The translations under genes and the position numbers were made by a program. The notes under the pieces were generated by a model. It saw only the letters and a list, made by a program, of their open reading frames with translations, did not search any database and had not been told where the DNA came from. DNA of 64,000 nt from Heterotrichella gracilis (taxonomy: Eukaryota; Sar; Xanthophyceae; Tribonematales; Xanthonemataceae): assembly GCA_032358255.1 (NCBI GenBank), contig JAULBX010012210.1, positions 248,001 to 312,000 of the forward strand, given 5' to 3'. This document shows, piece after piece, positions 49,027 through 59,973 of this stretch (position 1 is the first letter of the stretch; every line of letters starts with the position of its first letter).

Positions 49027-50038
49027 GGCTTCAGAAGACAGGCTCAAGTTGAGCAAGAGGGTATGCCACTCGTGTGGCTGTGTGAGGCGGAGCATGGCAC
49101 CCGAGTTTGCCGTCTGATTGTTTGCCCAAATGATATTAATAGCTATTTCTTTTGTGTTCCTCAACCTTCCATTTCTTGTTATTTATATTAGATCGCAGCG
49201 CTAGCGACCACTGCAGCTACCACAACCCTAGATAAGTCTGCGCAGCGGGATAGAACCAGGTGATGCATGACACAACACGATGCACCACTATTGGTGATGC
49301 ACAACTGACAAGCACTTGGGAAGAGCTTTTTCAAAGCCTTTGCTTGTATATGCAGTATTGTGTTTCCTCACTTAGACCTGGAATCCACAGTGCTTGAAGC
49401 AACATGTCCATTCAAGTTTTGGGCGGGCATTTCTTGATAAGCTTTTATTATTGTTATTGTTGTAATATTACTCTTTATTATAGAAACGTATCAAGTTGAT
49501 CGCCCACCTTCTTCCCCACTCACGAAGATTGTTTGCCTGAGTGCCATAACTCCCCCACGCCTTATCCTTCAATTCCTTATCACACCAGTATGGCCCATAT
49601 AGATCACGATTCACCAATGCATGCATATGACTGTTAACACCAAATCCAGTGGCAGCTTGTTTTTTACAGCACGAAACTAACCAGTATCAGCTACTCCAGT
49701 AGCCTCCGCAGTGTGACCATTGTGACATAGCACTAGTTGGCTACAGTCTGCGGTGAGGGGTTGCCAATTGTTCGAAGCATGCATGCATGCATGCATGCTA
49801 GTCGCAAAGTCTTTTCAAGAGTTTGTACCAACACACTGTACTGTATCTGAGTTGACAATAGCAAGAACAGGTCCCATTGAAAACTTTTCGGAAGAGGAGC
49901 AGCGCACAGGCTGGCAACGGGAGCAGCAGGAAGCGACTTCTCTTGGGCAGCAGCAAATATTCCACTGACCACACGACTTCACTGCAAAAATATACCTCAG
50001 ATGTAGAGGCAATTCAGCCAATATCCACCTGGAACGGC
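49027..50038. promoter_or_regulatory. Promoter region of the polymerase fusion gene and GH88 3' flank
   Basis: 1.0 kb. TGTAA at about 49461 is a candidate polyadenylation signal for GH88. A 22-bp run of GCAT units lies at 49778-49799. From about 49863 the frame that leads into the polymerase ATG is open and shows basic, Ser-rich content (FRKRSSAQAG, SSRKRLLLG) after a possible acceptor (AAGAACAG), so the true protein may start further upstream. Confidence 0.5.
49778..49799. repeat. (GCAT)n palindromic tract
   Basis: Twenty-two bases of alternating GCAT, fully self-complementary, 240 bp upstream of the polymerase fusion ATG. Shorter tracts of the same unit occur at about 26483, 43979 and 44119. 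Confidence 0.9.
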
Positions 50039-53000
50039 ATGGATGCCGCACCAGGGCAGGCCTCAGGCCCTGGCCTGCAAGACCACCAGGCACTGCTGCC
50101 AATGACTGGCGCTGAGGGCCCTGCCAGCAATGTAGCCCTACTTGGTGGGACAGGGCACGCCAGCGCTGCTACCGGTATTAGCAGCGGGATGGGCAGGTGG
50201 GGTCATGCGGAGGGCACTGGTGGGGCTGTGCAGGTGGTTCCAGACACCAGCCGGGTGATACTGCACTTCGATATCGATGCGTTTTATGCCCAAGTGGAGG
50301 AAGTGAGGAACCCGGCTCTGAAGGACCGTCCTTTGGGTAGGTTTGGCCTTGCACGTACGCTTTCCTGTTGCATGCAATGGTGAGGCAGCACTAGGCACGT
50401 GGCGGCACCTTTGACGCACACAAGGTGGACCACACAACCACCAATGGCTCGGACTCACACTTGCACGCCGGAAAGTGTATGCTGCTGTGTGCCAACTATC
50501 CCTTGATGCAAATCCAGGAGTGACCCAGAAGTACCTGATCGTAACCTGCAACTACCCCGCCAGGAGCATGGGTGTGACCAAGCTCATGAGCATAACTGAG
50601 GCAAAGCAAAAATGCCCCAACCTGGTGCTTGTCAGTGGAGAGGACCTGACTCCTTACCGCCAGGCCAGCAAGCAGGTATGCGGTGACGATATGGGACAGC
50701 ATCCCACGTTTCAGGCTTTGGTTCTGGGCTGTGGTTGGTGAGCCATGTGCAAAACCCTAGGGTCCATATCCTAGCAATCTTGGATTTTTGTGGTACCAGG
50801 TTCAGCAACAACCTCCCAGCCATGTGCTGCCAGCTCGCCCGTGTTGTTGCCTAAATGTTCAGAAAATGTCGGCAATAGTTGAAGGAGGGATTCCTATGAA
50901 CCAGTGTGACTTGTGCAGCTCAGTCACTGAGTGTCATTTGTGCAATTCAATGCATGCAGCTGCTCAGCGTGCTGTCTCGGTTTGGGGTGGCTGAGAAGCT
51001 TGGCCTGGACGAGATCTTTGTGGAGGTCACCAAGGAGGTGCACAGCAGGATGTCCAAGGGTGTCGGCGCAGCGTCCTGGTGTGGACATGTGCACAGCAGC
51101 CAGGTAAGTGACCAATGAGCGTGGGAAGTGCTGGTGTGATTTCATGTGCACTGGGTGCCTACCATGCCCCGGCCATGCTTGGGTCGCTTAACACCATGCA
51201 TCTGGGTTTATATGAATCAGTCTGCATCACATATGCCCATTGCAACAGATAGCAGAAATAATATACTCATTCGATTTCCATTTGTTCTCCTGCCAGGTGC
51301 TCCTGACCCAGGATAGCAGGCATCGACCACAGGATCTCAGAGTACGCAGCAACTTTGCTGAGCAGCACGGAGCATGTGCCTTAGCAGCTGAGGGCATGAA
51401 TGTGGCGGCAGGGGTGCCTGAATGGGAGCTGATGCTGCGGGTGGGCAGCGCCATTGCTCAAGAGGCACGAGCAGCGCTCAAGGTACTTTAAAACCTTGCA
51501 GGCTTCAATGCTACCATGGACAGCCATAAATTGACTCATGTACTTTACATGAAGGTGACGAGATATGTCATGCACTGCTTGATCAGGTTTGCCAGGCTCA
51601 TGTTGGAGGCCCACCATGGCGACACATACGCATGCCGTGTGATTGGATGCAGGTGGAGGTTGGGTTCAGAGCCTCTGCTGGCATTGCATGCAACAAGATG
51701 CTCGCTAAGATGGCTAGTGGGCTGCACAAGCCTGACGATCAAACTGTGCTCCCCCCTCCTGAAGCCCTGGATTTCATATCACCCCTGCCAATCCGCGCGG
51801 TTCCCGGCATTGGCTACAAGCTGGCTACAGAGCTGACCCAAATGCAGATCCAGACGGTGGCAGATTTGAGGCAGTTGAGCAGGGATGCGTTGGTGGAGAA
51901 GTTTGGTGACAGGATTGGGGTGTTTGTGTACATGGCGTGCAGGGGCCAGGTACGATTATTTGCCCACATAGTTCCTAAGCACTTAGCATTAGAAATATGG
52001 CTGAAGACGACATCAGCACATTCCAGTACATGCTTCTCAATCATATTTCTGCATGTGTCTGGGCAAAACATGGCATCAATTTACAACATTCTGGTCATTT
52101 GGCATGCACTGTACTCGTACCAGGTCCTGTTCAATTGTGCCGAGTATGTCCTTGGCTGTCTTGCAGGATTTTAGTCCTGTGCAGGAGCGTGGGCCTCCAA
52201 AGTCCATCACAGTGGAAGATTCCTTCAAGTCCTGCAGCTCGCTGGTAGCTGTGGAGCATGTCGTGCGCATTCTGGCACCAGATCTGCTGGAAAGGTTGCT
52301 AGAAGACTATGAGGCAAGCGATTGCACTCAACTTCCCAAATTGCAACACTACTGCAGTTAAGGAACTAACTGTCATCCATGAAAGTCACCCGCTTCATTC
52401 TTTTTAAACACAATGTACCCATATATCATGTATGTCACAATGGAAAATACCCATGTATTATGTATGTCACAATGAAGGGAAACGAGTCATTGGACCTCAT
52501 TACATTGGCATTCACAGGAGCACCGAAGAAGGCCTAGCACGCTGACTGTGAAATGGAGGAAGAAGGGCCAAGGATGGAGCCGCACTTCAGCATCATGTGC
52601 CTTGCCTCAGGATGTGCAGTATTTCCGTGGCACCAAGGCAAGTAACTGGACCAGGTGCAAATGGCAGATAGATGTCAGTTAATGGAAGCACACATGGAAC
52701 TCCCTTTTGGTGGCACTGTTAGCATGATGGGGGACAGCTTTACCATCGTAAGCATACAGTAGCTCTGGAAATGATCATACAACAAAATGCACCTAGTTGT
52801 TTTTACTCCCACCCATTGTCCCGGTGATATTTTGTTTCCAACGACCATCCCCAGGAGCACCAGGAGCAGACGCTGCAAAGTGCCGCAATGGGCCTGCTGT
52901 CGCGCAACCTCAAGGAGGCCTCCTTTGACCTGACTCTGATCAACCTAGGGGCCACAAGCTTCTCTGCTGGTGCAGCAACCTCCGCCGGGTCTGGCACACT

Positions 53001-56000
53001 AGACAGGCTGTTTGGCCGCCAAGTGGCGCCATCACAGGCATCAAGCCAACAACCATCAGCTCTACCAGTGCAAGGTCTGTCCCTGATGGGCCACCTATCG
53101 CATTTGACACCCTTTTTGCCGCATTTAGTGCGTATTTTGTACTGTGTGAACTGCATGGTTGTCACACCTTCTGGGTATTGGCCAGCTTTCACTATGACCA
53201 ACGGTTTGCCTGACTGATGGCAGTGTGTTTTGACACAGGTTCTGGTTCAGCCTTCCAGCTGGCCGCTGCATCCATCAGCCAGCGCAGGAGCTATGGAGCT
53301 GCCCCGAGCGGTGGTCCAATCAGCAAAAGTATGGAACGCGCCCTCAGAGAAGCCAGACCACAACCTGCCAATGCTGACAACCATAGCTTGACAGATGCGG
53401 CCACGCCTCTTGATAGAGACCCCCCCTGGCAGCCTGGTAGACTGGCGCAGCAAAGCAGTATGCAGCCACACTGTGTACAGCTACATGCCAAACCTCCAGA
53501 TGCTGATTGGGGTTTTGATGACATGGCGGATGGAACGGATGAAAGCATATGGGATGATCTGCGCTCCATTGGCACTGGGCAAGCACGGTCAGAAGCTCAG
53601 CGCGTGGTACAGCAAAGCTTGCACAGGGCAGTCGAGCCCCCCTTTCTGCAGGCAGCCAGCAACACACTTTTGAGCTGTGTGGATCCCTCTGTCAGCCAGC
53701 CCTGCTGCAGTGTTGCAGGCGCCTCCAGCAGTGGGCTTGCTGAAGCGCCGTGCGCCAAGTCACTGGGCATAGATTTCCAGCCTGCAGTGTCTCAATCTGG
53801 CCACAAGTCAAGCAGCAGTGGCCCTCCTGCACGTGTCGTGATCCACTGTGACGTGGATTGCTTCTACTGCCAGGTTGAGAGGATGGATGACCGGTCCCTC
53901 ATGGGCCGGCCTGTGGTTGTGCAGCAGTTCAACAGTGGAGGCTTTGTGGCGGTATCCTACGAGGTACGAGTGGCTGCGAGCTGTGCAATATGCTATGCCC
54001 CAATACTGACCTTTCAAACTGCAATCTGGAATGCACATACTTGCTAGCATTGAAATTTAACCCACTTCCCCTTCGGTGATTGGCTGCCAGTGCAGGGCTG
54101 CTGATGCGCCAGGGCTCTGTCAGGAATTTGCTATTTTAACAGAATGTTTTGGGCTGCTGCAGGCCAGGGCAGCAGGCATTAAATGTGGAGACGGTGTTGG
54201 CGATGCCGGCAGGGCAAGCATCAAGCATCTGCAGGCCATTGGCGCTGTGAGCATGGAAGATGCCATGCGCAACTGTCCTGGGCTGGTGGTGAAGCCAATG
54301 CGCACCGAGCGTTACCGGCAGGTACTTCTATGAGGGCGAATTGCCTAGTATATTGATGGGTGGCAAAGCTGTGTGCATTTGTAATACATTTGAGCAGCAG
54401 ATTTTTATCGAATTGGATGCCCGGAACCAAGTATGACAAGCTTGTGTGTTTATTGCAGGTTGGCAACATTATCCATGACATCATCCGTCGCTTTGCTCCT
54501 ACCGGCGCCGTGGCAAAGACCAGTTATGATGATTTCTACATTGACGTCAGTGCACACTGCCAGGCTGATGCCGACACCCTAGTGCCACAAACCTGCCCTG
54601 CTGGAGTGAAGGTGGTGCAGGGTGGCCAATGGGAGCTCATTGAGGAGCCACTGAGGAAGGGAGTGCAGGTAGTTCACGGAACAGCCTTATTTGGTTGGTC
54701 ATAGTGGCATTAAGTTAATGAAGAAGGGCATTGTGCATACATATGCCCGCCAGTGATCCTCTTTTGCGTGCTTGTTATGCAAGGGTCATGTGGCTACCCT
54801 GGGTTTTACGTATGTCACAAACCAGGAATGAGTTGCAGTGCATAAAAACGTTGCTTTATGCAGTGCGACTGGTGCAGTGTGTGGATCATTAAAACAATTG
54901 GATCAGAAATATGTTGGCAGGTTTGGCCAGTAGCATCTGTCTACGGGCGGCGTGAAATACAATTATCATGCTGCACAGGTTGCGATGGACATCAGAGATG
55001 CTCTGTGGCAGGAATTGGGGATTGCTGCTTCATGTGGAGTGGCTCGCAACAAGCTGCTGGCTCGTCTAGTTGGCCCCATGAACAAACCAGACTGCATTTC
55101 AGTCCTCCCCAGCAGCAGCGTGGAAGCGTTCATGGAGAATATGCTCATACAGAAAATTCCATCCTTGCAGTAAGTGCTTGTTTCCTTTCTCCTATTGCCT
55201 TGCAATGTCACTGGGTTTCCCACTTCCACTCCCACTGCTGTGACCAGTGTGGCCCCTGTGTGTCGCTCCATGGAATAGCTGACCAAGCTAGTAAACATGT
55301 TGGGCACTATGCCAGCTTAAGGCTACCTGATTATGCAATCATTTGGCAGCCTCTGGCAAAGCTTGCATACATTGCTTGTCTACAGCATCAGCTGTTAGCA
55401 AAATACAACTTGTAGACATTTGTATACCAATTTGCAGGCGGAAACTGGGGAATGAGGTAGTGGCCGCTCTTGGCATCAGCCAGGTGGGTGAACTGTCGAC
55501 CTGCACCCCGCAAGCCCTGGCGCAGTTTGGCCCTGCAGTTGCAAGGTTCCTGACTGGGCTGCCCAAGGGTGTGGATGACTCGCCTGTGGAGGAGCGGGGG
55601 CCCCAAAAAAGCATCATCAGCGAGAAGAGCTTTCCGGCTTTGACCTCGGATGCTGCTGTTGCCGGGGCGCTGAAGCCGCTCGCTGCAGCGCTGTGGGGGC
55701 GCCTGAAGGAGGTGAGGCATGGGGGATGTAAACTGTCACAACTAGTATGGAACCATCCATTGAGTTAGAGCCTAGCCTGTGCTGTCACAGTTTGAGTTGC
55801 CAGCATGAGCAGGGTGTGTAACAGGTGGGGTTTGTGACAGGTGGGCCAGGCAATTACAACAAATCGCGGCATGGCGCAACCGTCACAAACCCTTTCTTTT
55901 CAAAATATTATCTTTGGTGCTGAGATTTCTCGAGTCCTGCACAGCTTGCGCAGACATGTGGTGCTGTGCAACAGCCACGATTGGCACGTCACCGGAAAAC

Positions 56001-57195
56001 ATGTGTAATATGTGACAGAAGTGTGCTTTGCGTGCAGGACACTGCCCTCCACAAGCGCATGCCCAGCAAGCTCACCCTGACATGGAGGCAGGGCTACGAC
56101 ACCCCCAAGGCGCGCTCCACAGCCATGCCATCATGCGCACTGACCCACCTGTCCAAGCTGCTCCTGGCACACCGTGAACCAGCCCTGCCTGCTGCAAGCC
56201 CCTCCCCTCACAGGCAGGCGCCACCCACAGCAACAGCGCATGCAGGTGGAGTGCCACAGGCGCGAGAAGGGAGCGCTGACCAGCTATCCCAGCAGCAACA
56301 GGAGGATGCAGGGGCCAGTGATGTCATTGCCACTGCCTGCATCGCCCTGCTCAAGATCAGCGCTCAGCCTCCCTGGCGCATCACGCGGTTTGCTGTCGGG
56401 GTGATGTATGACGCCGCTGCACCACCTCCGGCACAGGCGGGCAGCATTCTGGGGTTCCTCCAGCCACGTGGCACACTGCCCATTCCCAATGGAGGGGCAT
56501 CAGGGGGTTTGACCTCTCAGGTGGGATGTGAGGTGGCTGGTGGTGGCGCCAGCCTGGAGTTGGGTGTGGAGGCAGGGCAGTGGGGTGACCGAGGTCAACA
56601 AGGCATGCGCCATGACTCTACCTCCTGTGGACTGGATGGTGGCGTAGGCTGCTTGGGGGATGCTCCTGGCAGCACACTGCAGCCACCAGACCATGAGCCT
56701 CGTCCGGCTGGTTCAGCGCATGCTCAGCCCAGCGACAGTGCAGGTGGGATGCAGGGACACAAGGTGGTGGGGTCCACGGCTGGGGATAGCACGCTGCATG
56801 CGGCTCAGTCAGGGGGATTGCCCATGGCTGCAGAGCTTGGCGCAGCTCAAACCCCAGCCATGCCAGCTGCATCTCGAGCAGCCGCTGGGCAACCCAGTGG
56901 CAGAAACCCTTCACAAGGGTCGGCGGAGATTGCCAAGCTCAGGGGTATGCTGAAACAGCATGCGGGGGATCTGAGGCGGCTGGTTGGGGATGATGTCCTG
57001 CAGGGACTGACTGTGCAGCAGAAGTCCGACATGGAGATGGCGCTCAGGCTTCAGCAGGACGAGCTAGGGTTGCGCCAGAACCCTAAGGGTGGCGGGGGTC
57101 AGCGGTCTCCTGCCGGCCGCAGCAGCAAGCGCAGCAAGCTGTCCACAGGCGGGCCACTTGATGCCTTCTTCAAATTGAAACCAAAATCTTGCTGA
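50039..57195 (+). CDS. POLI-POLH fusion: Tandem Y-family DNA polymerase: Pol iota-type module fused to Pol eta-type module
   Basis: Fourteen exons (50039-50336, 50518-50675, 50960-51103, 51297-51482, 51653-51949, 52167-52313, 52518-52637, 52855-53074, 53239-53963, 54163-54321, 54459-54668, 54979-55169, 55438-55711, 56038-57195) give 1,428 residues with every junction in phase. Residues about 70-480 are iota-like: HFDIDAFYAQVE (Asp78), VTQKYLIVTCNYPARSMGV, GLDEIFVEV (Asp169-Glu170), SAGIACNKMLAKMASGLHKP, IRAVPGIGYK, then a little-finger domain. A PIP-like box GTLDRLF ends at 503. A Ser/Gln-rich linker follows to about 720. Residues about 725-1100 are eta-like: HCDVDCFYCQVE (Asp728), GGFVAVSYEARAAGIK, SYDDFYIDV (Asp842-Asp843), AASCGVARNKLLARLVGPMNKP, and KSIISEKSFP. 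The tail ends in a better PIP box, GPLDAFFKLKP (1415-1425). Both enzymes do translesion synthesis. Introns 6 and 7 have GC donors. The ATG used is the first in frame; the start could be upstream. Confidence 0.88.
52417..52474. repeat. Imperfect 26-bp tandem repeat in polymerase intron 6
   Basis: Two copies starting ACCCAT and ending TGTATGTCACAATG (52417-52442 and 52449-52474) lie in the GC-AG intron between exons 6 and 7. Confidence 0.8.
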
Positions 57196-58404
57196 TGAAC
57201 TGACAGTGACTGTGTGAAAGTATTTTGACCTGGTAGCGACCTGATATTATGGTACCCGGACTTTCTGTCCTATGGAATAATATAACATGCCAACTGTCAA
57301 TGTGTCGTTCCATGCCAGCGCCAGCTATCCTTGTGCTGACAGCCGTGCAATTGGCATGGCGTGAAGCCCACGCTGATGGATGCACAATATATGCACATAT
57401 GTTCCATTATGGGTTGTCACCCCACATGGTCCTTCTTTATTTCCTGCCGGCACCTACACTGCTCCCCACAGTACCACCACTCCCTCCACCACTACTTTTT
57501 TCCGTCCGAGGGACGGTTTCCCTGACTGACTTGACTTGGGGGCTATGCGTAGTTGCTATGCCGCCTTATTTACGCCTTTGGCGTCTGTTTTCTTTTCTTT
57601 TCTTTTCTTGGGCTGGGTATGCTGCATTCCATAAGGACTCAAACGTCAGAAGCAAACTTGACTTTTAGCCCAGGCTTTTGGGTTGTGGGATTTGCAAATG
57701 CATGTCACATCAGCTGAGTGTCCTACACGTGTTGTGCACGCTGAGGGGCCTAGGCTAACCGGTGGGATTAATCCAAATCCCACAGGGCCTGGCCAGCACT
57801 ACCTCTTCAAGGACAACAGGCTCGACCCTTTAGGGCTTAGAAGCGGCTTAGAAGCTCCAAGGGTTTACGATGACCCTTGCAGGGCCACCGGTGGCACACT
57901 TTGCCATGGGACCTGCCGAAAATCGAATCTGATATAAATTTCATCCTGAGTCAGCACGTGGGCCTGCCACGGCGATATCTCATTGGCCAGGCAGGATGGC
58001 GCCAAAAGGCCAGACTTGAAAGCTGTGCCTTCGGCCGTCAAAACTGTCTTCTTGCTGTGGTTTCTCGAGCTTTCCTAAGCACCGGAGTGGTATCCAACAG
58101 CCAAGGTACGGCGAAAGCACCGTTGCATGGCTCTTGCAATACATGTGCACCCACGGCATGTGTTCAACAGCTCAGGGCGTGGCTCCGGAACCTCCCGGGG
58201 CCGGGGGCAAGCGTTGCACTCGGAACTGTCGCATTGCGTGTACAAGCCAGCAGAATCCTTTGTATTGCTCGTGCTGAAACCATTTGGCCTAGTAAGGGCT
58301 CAGGCTGGCTCAATTTTTTAAGGCTTGGCAACCTGCCAGACTGAACCCTGGCTTTCGCGCAGGTCGTTTGCCCCCCACCAGCCCTCACCACCCCGACCTC
58401 CACC
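57196..58404. promoter_or_regulatory. Polymerase 3' flank and PsbQ promoter
   Basis: 1.2 kb. It contains one copy of a dispersed repeat (57541-57605) with a pyrimidine tract. The PsbQ promoter should lie in the right half. Open frames here (for example around 57877-58344) show no family or compositional support. Confidence 0.5.
57541..57605 (+). repeat. Dispersed repeat fragment, copy 2
   Basis: GGCTATGCGTAGTTGC, then CGCCTTATTTACGCC and TTTGGCGT, then a TTTTC-rich tract. It matches 29986-30055 read on the other strand. Both copies lie in intergenic DNA just past gene 3' ends. Confidence 0.65.
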
Positions 58405-59973
58405 ATGGCCTCCTCAATGCTGCTCAAGGCTCCCACCACCCGCCCTGCGGCTTCCACCGTGCGCAGAGGCCCAGAGCCTCGTCGCCTGTCCGTTGTGGTG
58501 CCACGGGCGTCTGCAGGGTCCAGCTCAGATAAGCTCAAGGTCAACCTGGTGGGAGCGGCGGGCTTTGCTGCGGGCCTGCTGCTGCTTCAGGGAACGCCTG
58601 CCCTTGCGTTGGATTTGGAGCCCGGACAGCAGTACCTCAGTGAGTGACGTTTGGGCAGGGATTTCAACCCCGTTTTGCTGAAGGTCCCATGTGGCACAAA
58701 TTTTCAAAACCCTAAACCCTAAGTCATTCTGTAAACCCTACATGCCCTGGAGCCTCACTCGCAGTTAGTTGTTGCGACGCAGGCAGGTCCATACATTTGG
58801 AGAACACTTGTGCAAGCTACATGCTGTCCCTGCCAGTATTGGTAACCATCAGTGCTGATACTATGCGCGCGCTGCATGTTTACTATTATACTGCGCAAGC
58901 CGCATGGCATGCACCGCTGCTACATCTGCGCTTGCAACACTGTACTCATGATCTTCCTGTTCTCTCAGAGACCCAGCAGAGCATGGACCAGGCTCGCGAC
59001 CCCCAGGAAGACCAGCGCAAGCGCTTCTCCTTTGTGGATGTGGATGGCCTGACCGTCGACAAGAGCAAGGCGCGCATCAAGGCAGCGTACTCTCGCCTGC
59101 AGTCCTCACTGAAGGCGGCCGTTGACAAGAACCACTGGTCTGACATCCAGGCCGAGGTCAGGGGCCCACTGGGAACACTCAGGTATGTGCTAACCAGCAG
59201 CTGTGTGCCTCTTGAACACGTGGCCACTGAACCTGCGAGTCATGAACATGTGGAGTGCATTATTACGCAATAATGCTTACCCTATTTGTAGCGTGCAATC
59301 GACCAGTGACTATGTTGGCACCTGCCAAGACCCCTGCCAGAATGTATACCACATATTATGCATGCAAATTGAATATAAAGTTCCAATTGATGAACGTGGA
59401 GCCCTCATGCGATAGGCCCATGTTGCGGTGTGCCAGGGAGGAACAGTAGTGCTTGAACCATCCCTTGTTCACCGTGTCTCCCATGGTGCAGGTATGACAT
59501 CGACCAGCTGGTGGCCACCAAGGGCAAGAAGGACACCAAGGCACAGGAGCTGCGCAACAGCGTGGTGAACGCTCTCAATGAGGTACACATTTCCTGCCTC
59601 ACCCTTGCTCAAGCTAGTAACTAGCCACCCTACCCACACCAGCTATGTCGGTGTGGACACCTGTCGGTTGCAACTTAGTTCCAATGATGGGCAATGTGAC
59701 ATGGCCGCAACCGCATTCCATGCATTGGGTGGTCATGGCTGTAACAGCACCACGGGGTTGTTGCGCTTGGGCTTGAGCAAGCGTGCGCGGTTGCAGCGGT
59801 AGTTGTAGCTACCATGAACCTTGGCCTTCGCCTAGTCTCCACACTCACGCGTACTTGTGTTGTCATGTGCGCAGCTTGACCTGGCGGCACGCAAGAACGA
59901 TGCCGCCAAGAGCCAGACCCAGTATGCGGCGGCGGTGAGCGCTCTGGAGTCTGCCATCTCCTACCTGGGTTGA
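58405..59973 (+). CDS. PSBQ: PsbQ, oxygen-evolving enhancer protein 3, thylakoid lumen
   Basis: Four exons (58405-58639, 58969-59182, 59492-59582, 59875-59973) give 212 residues. PsbQ is an extrinsic subunit that stabilises the manganese cluster of photosystem II. The N-terminus is a bipartite signal: a Ser/Thr/Arg-rich stromal transit part, then KLKVNLVGAAGFAAGLLLLQ and a cleavage site after TPALA. The mature protein is an all-helical bundle with KSKARIKAAYSRLQSSLK, HWSDIQAEVRGPLGTLRYDI and ELDLAARKNDAA, which match the algal PsbQ pattern (acidic/basic helices around the GTLR core). It is shorter and more divergent than the land-plant form, as in other algae. Intron 1 contains CCCTAAACCCTAA units soon after the donor. 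Exon 1 donor is GTGAGT. A PsbQ-like (NDH-linked) protein is a less likely alternative. Confidence 0.85.

Follow-up and report, generated by a model that had tools for sequence, protein, structure and literature searches.

To our knowledge, known DNA polymerases iota (Pol iota, RAD30B/POLI) carry a single catalytic core, and human Pol iota is said, in the title of a 2013 study by McIntyre, to interact physically and functionally with Pol eta (RAD30A/POLH). A gene on a Heterotrichella gracilis contig (JAULBX010012210.1, positions 248,001 to 312,000; this 64,000-nucleotide stretch is referred to here as the window) appears likewise to couple iota to a RAD30-type partner, but within one chain rather than between two proteins, and with a partner that is not canonical eta. 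Its product consists of an iota core (module 1), a 225-residue linker, a second Y-family core (module 2) and one tail containing the motifs DMEMALRLQ and GPLDAFF. Pol iota was known in green algae before, as the accessible portions of PMC8595933 attest, and the words 'fusion', 'fused' and 'tandem' do not occur in the main text of that paper. Among the open-access papers listed in literature searches, one of which listed 15 of 192, none was recognisable as describing such a fusion.

A gene for two Y-family cores

Module 1, on sequence grounds, is a Pol iota. It contains the iota thumb domain PF21999 (48.9 bits, cut-off 27), listed for module 1 and not for module 2, scores 263.7 bits against iota and 177.9 bits against eta structures in the PDB, and falls within a clade shared with animal and plant iota (29 rows, support 100/98, in a 67-row tree; 24 rows, 97/88, in a 48-row tree). 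Its hairpin reads VTQKYLIVT, compared with VQQKYLVVT in human iota, and thus includes the QKYL.VT residues that shape the narrow pocket of this enzyme. The agreement of thumb domain, PDB scores and clade bears out the iota half of the 'iota-eta fusion' proposed in a preliminary description of the locus, and the likeness to Pol iota extends to the fold, as judged from the relative P0001; the difference lies in the second core that intervenes between the iota core and a clamp-binding-like tail. A single-sequence scan of viral contigs with a few short patterns, a weak negative, returned no relatives of module 1.

Two cores are present in the order first described. Both modules exceed the Pfam IMS cut-off of 23.2 bits (133.6 bits for module 1 and 111.8 bits for module 2), and predicted structures of relatives display complete cores. 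The AlphaFold2 model of P0001, the closest fused relative (Apatococcus fuscideae), comprises two folded blocks, mostly with a predicted local distance difference test score (pLDDT) above 85, each showing the helix and strand order of a full Y-family core, and a linker of very low confidence that looks disordered. The first block can be superposed on human iota over its entire core. The fold comparison of the full two-module model picked up module 1 only, and module 2 was compared by way of its relative P0027, whose model (mean pLDDT 67.6 for the whole chain, with a much higher value for the core) likewise superposes on the whole human iota core.

The gene was rebuilt by hand, with splice sites picked by eye, and comprises 14 exons and 4287 bases including the stop codon, encoding 1428 residues with no internal stop (Table 1), in line with the earlier account of fourteen exons joined in phase. 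Both motifs quoted in that account were located, VTQKYLIVTCNYPARS in exon 2 and GGFVAVSYE/ARA (the stroke marking the boundary) across exons 9 and 10. Eleven of the 13 introns are of the GT-AG type and two are GC-AG (introns 6 and 7); the latter, at 52314-52517 and 52638-52854, are consecutive and both lie within the iota half. The start codon is uncertain: the 13 relatives compared mostly open with M..K.ALE.FRVRQ, and upstream of exon 1 this pattern left weak, doubtful traces only, such as FRKRSSAQ at 49886, which is in the exon 1 frame and has no start codon before it.

Whether both modules form one gene turns largely on exon 9, where the motif RRSYG...SKSMERALRE and the start of the module 2 palm stand together. 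The underlying pattern RR.Y...SK..ER is met in 12 of the 17 fused proteins. Of the 27 iota-only entries 13 have it, among them Trebouxia P0057, Coccomyxa P0058 and Chlorella P0063, as does one of 15 module-2-only entries; the shuffling expectations are 0.005, 0.005 and 0.000, respectively. The entries were grouped by hand, and several 'module-2-only' and 'iota-only' ones probably represent fragments of fused genes. The sole module-2-only case, P0017, also holds by eye the end of an iota core. Frequent among fused and iota-only entries and nearly absent from module-2-only ones, the pattern thus belongs to the iota side. In two relatives, P0062 and P0066, the frame encoding iota stops inside the first strand of module 2 (QRVVIH), and such frames, judging from their metagenomic source, would be unspliced; P0066 bears the same contig-length label, 17741, as P0030, which holds the rest of a module 2. 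Across 12 fused proteins, that of the window included, module 1 and module 2 distances are correlated (Mantel r 0.887, a value reached in none of 5000 permutations), which is what common descent would predict. The in-phase join of exons 8 and 9 is by itself weak evidence, since 81 GT-AG combinations for intron 8 leave the frame open and its borders are not unique. A scan for the poly(A) words TGTAA, AATAAA and ATTAAA gave none in 53041-54000, a result made uninformative by their equal absence from 57151-57700.

Table 1. Window coordinates of the fusion gene and of its principal elements
Feature	Positions	Strand	Residues or exons	Remarks
Whole fusion gene	50039..57195	+	Exons 1-14	Exons: 50039-50336, 50518-50675, 50960-51103, 51297-51482, 51653-51949, 52167-52313, 52518-52637, 52855-53074, 53239-53963, 54163-54321, 54459-54668, 54979-55169, 55438-55711, 56038-57195
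Module 1, Pol iota catalytic core	50234..52974	+	Residues 66-490, exons 1-8	Pfam IMS, PF21999, PDB scores, clade
Exon 9	53239..53963	+	Exon 9	Unbroken 725-base exon with iota-side motif, linker and beginning of module 2
Linker motif RRSYGAAPSGGPISKSMERALRE	53283..53351	+	Inside exon 9	Signature that follows the iota core in many green-algal iotas
Module 2, second Y-family core	53814..56193	+	Residues 716-1095, exons 9-14	Pfam IMS, own clade
Finger insert CGDGVGDAGRASIKHLQAI	54184..54240	+	Residues 773-791	GDG.G..GR signature
Motif III of module 2	54528..54533	+	Residues 842-843	Asp-Asp replacing Asp-Glu
Tail helix DMEMALRLQ	57028..57054	+		Resembles last helix of streptophyte iota UBZ zinc finger; zinc ligands absent
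C-terminal GPLDAFF	57151..57171	+		PCNA-interaction-like motif

The window is part of a contig (C123) of the genome searched, which amounts to 68.5 Mb in 903 contigs. The next gene downstream, at 58405-59180, fits an algal nuclear contig, and its product presumably resembles a plastid-targeted PsbQ-type protein.

Affinities of the second core

The eta half of the proposed fusion calls for correction. Module 2 forms a clade of its own in both trees (27 rows, 100/99, of 67; 16 rows, 100/98, of 48), and shows no clear preference in the PDB, scoring 115 bits against iota and 110 bits against eta. All 27 of its rows carry Asp-Asp at motif III, in contrast with Asp-Glu in all five eta rows and in 28 of 29 iota rows. 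An insert of about 19 residues in the finger stretches the distance from SYEAR to CP to 33–35 residues, a spacing seen in 23 of 24 matched module-2 rows (the other being a mis-hit, with three of the 27 unmatched). The distance is 16–18 residues in all five eta rows and 16–17 in 21 of the 23 iota rows that matched, the remaining two being mis-hits. The position aligned with R61 of eta is occupied by Cys or Lys. Moreover, a separate plant-type eta is encoded elsewhere in the same genome (contig C112; 250 bits against PDB eta versus 110 against iota). Contig C347 (L011) harbors a second canonical eta-type gene, and three further contigs with Y-family matches (C442, C760 and C222; L013-L015), whose composition correlates with that of the alga at 0.27–0.39, are probably bacterial sequence in the assembly.

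The relation of module 2 to its neighbors in the tree is less sharply drawn. In the 48-row tree the eta clade (four rows, 99/94) is separate from module 2, and the two group together at 99/96; the 19 rows missing from this tree were removed because of their length, truncation or redundancy, and were picked once the first tree was known. A fifth, long eta row lies by itself in the 67-row tree. No more than five eta rows were available, two of them exon joins of our own making, and each tree used four or five. Placement of module 2 with iota is not rejected (p 0.42 in the first tree test, 0.167 with the 48-row tree), the trees themselves leaning toward eta. The fold of P0027 is closer to iota than to eta, in a comparison that had no canonical-eta control and a Z gap to which the compactness of the human iota chain may have contributed. 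The Pfam domain POLH-Rev1_HhH scores 20.0 bits on module 2, below its cut-off of 27, but separates eta poorly, because module 1 itself reaches 31.2 bits and some relatives list PF21704. Thus, with trees leaning toward eta and the fold of a relative toward iota, module 2 is described as a third RAD30-type subfamily, distinct from canonical eta, related to the iota/eta group and apparently unnamed.

Other origins for the second core were considered. A check of the phylogeny for a recent eta duplication recovered two separate, well-supported clades (iota 100/98, module 2 100/99), so that the modules differ in ancestry and recent duplication of one of them is rejected. Scans with few short patterns found no relatives of module 2 in viral contigs, by single sequence or by alignment, nor in prokaryote genomes by alignment; these weak negatives offer no backing for a viral or prokaryotic origin.

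Recurrence of the layout in green algae

The layout is not peculiar to this genome and recurs in core chlorophytes. Of 20 proteins retrieved in a database search, 14 (P0001-P0014) hold both modules in the same order, complete or truncated, the other six being P0016 with the order reversed, P0015 (iota), P0017 (module 2 with an iota end), P0018 (kappa, by name), and P0019 and P0020 (Rev1-like, by domains). A further search added the fused proteins P0024, P0026 and P0028 and the damaged model P0021. Eleven named species possess the fusion: Apatococcus fuscideae, A. lobatus, Micractinium tetrahymenae, Edaphochlamys debaryana, Nannochloris 'desiccata', Auxenochlorella protothecoides, Astrephomene gubernaculifera, Pleodorina starrii, Volvox africanus, Botryococcus braunii and Ulva mutabilis, the last two being what we take the JGI labels Botrbrau1 and Ulvmu1 to denote. 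Classes were looked up for four of these, placing A. lobatus and Auxenochlorella in Trebouxiophyceae, Edaphochlamys in Chlorophyceae and U. mutabilis in Ulvophyceae. In the databases the fused relatives go by the names 'hypothetical protein', 'UmuC domain-containing protein' and 'DNA polymerase eta'.

Outside green algae, module 2 was found in the haptophyte Phaeocystis antarctica (P0037), as well as in P0016, P0034, P0036 and P0038. P0016, a predicted metagenomic protein of 1295 residues known from a single record, runs from module 2 through iota to a UBZ pattern. If it represents one gene, its two partners probably came together independently of the other fusions, which would argue strongly for a functional pair. 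Two polymerase cores per chain are likewise found in bacterial fusions such as P0041 and P0045, the difference being that these unite a Y-family with a C-family enzyme (Pol III alpha) and are bacterial. The domains listed for P0041, P0043-P0046, P0048 and P0051 (1306–1476 residues) are a Y-family core, PHP and Pol III alpha, and the sequences of P0041 and P0045 keep the SIDE motif in the Y-family core.

Among the matches listed, iota also appears in the liverworts Calypogeia and Riccia and in two entries with the labels Chlat1 and SM000..., which are presumably streptophyte algae. The earlier statement that iota is not generally reported in green plants is at odds with the liverwort matches and with the accessible text of PMC8595933, where the polymerase had earlier been described from green algae, including Raphidocelis, and from a spikemoss.

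Possible workings of a two-core enzyme

The tail offers a clue to how the two cores might be deployed. Its helix pattern is found in three of 17 fused proteins, and the end motif, which we take to be akin to a PCNA-interaction motif, in nine of 17 (several of the 17 being truncated) and in many iota-only and module-2-only entries. A full C2H2 UBZ pattern is present in the streptophyte iotas P0075, P0078, P0128 and P0142, in module 2 of Cymbomonas (P0022 and the near-identical P0023), in P0034 and in P0016. Since the tail-type helix forms the end of the UBZ in P0075, P0078 and P0128, the chlorophyte tail looks like a UBZ that has lost its zinc ligands, and its helix may conceivably still bind ubiquitin. 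Two module 2 proteins, P0027 and P0038, end in a RanBP-type zinc finger pattern.

The likeliest scheme is one in which the fusion would act as a single PCNA-tethered enzyme of translesion synthesis (TLS): the tail would hold the protein on PCNA, possibly in its ubiquitinated form, the iota core would insert a nucleotide opposite the lesion, and module 2 would take over the primer end on the same clamp and extend it past the lesion. Insertion and extension by two successive polymerases is the accepted order of events in the accessible sections of PMC11276120, and such a handover is plausible; for the scheme as a whole the arguments on either side are about evenly balanced. The catalytic motifs of module 2 count in its favor. 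Motif I reads D.D in 23 of 27 module-2 rows (the others, three gaps and one 'NH', are put down to truncation in three rows and to a broken model in one). According to the accessible text of PMC5264235, yeast eta cannot do without its acidic residues D30, E39 and D155 but can spare E156, a residue important for efficiency. Module 2 retains the positions of D30, E39 (by spacing) and D155 and carries Asp in place of E156, and we therefore think it may well be active, with altered chemistry.

Several observations weigh against the proposed pairing and its mechanism. Among the matches listed, iota occurs without module 2 in Coccomyxa (P0058-P0060), Bryopsis P0061, Chlorella variabilis P0063, Monoraphidium P0065, Raphidocelis P0072, Haematococcus P0074, Pedinophyceae P0146 and others, in a search that admits proteins of about 288–915 residues, thereby selecting against fusions, and of which 120 of 383 matches are listed. 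Trebouxia has separate entries for iota (P0057, P0152) and for a protein resembling module 2 (P0031, P0033, P0035). The link between the two is thus not indispensable, and each such case could be explained by loss, fission or poor gene models. The usual extender in the scheme of PMC11276120, as far as its accessible sections go, is Pol zeta, not a Y-family enzyme. Alanine at the catalytic acidic residues, 156 included, inactivates the enzyme according to another passage of PMC5264235, so that a change from Glu to Asp there could matter. Finally, Pfam detects no ubiquitin-binding domain in the window protein at E values up to 0.1.

Among rival explanations, those concerning the identity of the protein carry little probability. 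That adjacent iota and module 2 genes were misread as one is extremely improbable: the many equally open splice choices at the disputed intron 8 and the separate entries of some green algae would favor such an artefact, but exon 9 unites an iota-side motif with the start of module 2, the layout is shared by species of three algal classes, and iota frames of relatives run on into module 2. Read-through of two genes is thus thought unlikely, given the content of exon 9 and the recurrence of the layout, and as far as can be judged from sequence the fusion looks real, its product a single protein. Nor is module 2 at all likely to be simply the Pol eta of the alga. The hairpin GG[FI][VI]AVSYEAR and Q38 are common to both, and the two are adjoining groups once 19 rows are omitted from the tree, yet Asp-Asp in place of Asp-Glu, the extra finger residues, the missing Arg and the canonical eta encoded separately set module 2 apart.

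More serious is an alternative that grants two active cores but no handover within one bypass, each core acting as an inserter for its own lesions and the fusion serving to fix their ratio and recruitment on one clamp tail. The acidic residues kept at the catalytic positions of both cores, the long linker modeled with low confidence in a relative, the single tail shared by both cores and the role of Pol zeta as usual TLS extender all fit this reading, which is quite possible, if somewhat doubtful; alone, however, it leaves unexplained both the preserved pairing and a possible second fusion in reverse order (P0016). The standing of Pol zeta is the reason for setting the relay lower, and parallel inserters higher, than would otherwise be the case. 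By analogy with ImuB, which serves as a scaffold in bacterial mutasomes, module 2 might instead be a weak or inactive core retained as a scaffold. The universal Asp-Asp of motif III and the Cys or Lys aligned with R61 would agree with such a role, which is nevertheless unlikely considering the persistence of acidic residues at the catalytic positions, the invariance of the Asp-Asp form itself and the Phe-Tyr steric-gate pair kept in 23 of 27 rows (three gaps and one other).

Tentatively, then, module 2 may found a third eukaryotic RAD30-type subfamily, marked by the Asp-Asp motif III and the GDG insert, with Pol iota as its dedicated partner and with members among green algae, in a haptophyte and in other protists; the two may have been joined at least twice, once in each order, and may serve core chlorophytes as a built-in inserter/extender pair. 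A natural chain binding iota to one particular second polymerase in species of three algal classes points to a partner that iota may need, and the fusion makes the relay model testable in one gene of one alga, a natural test of two such enzymes in relay. For the family at large, it suggests a third member of the RAD30 branch, one named eta in some records.

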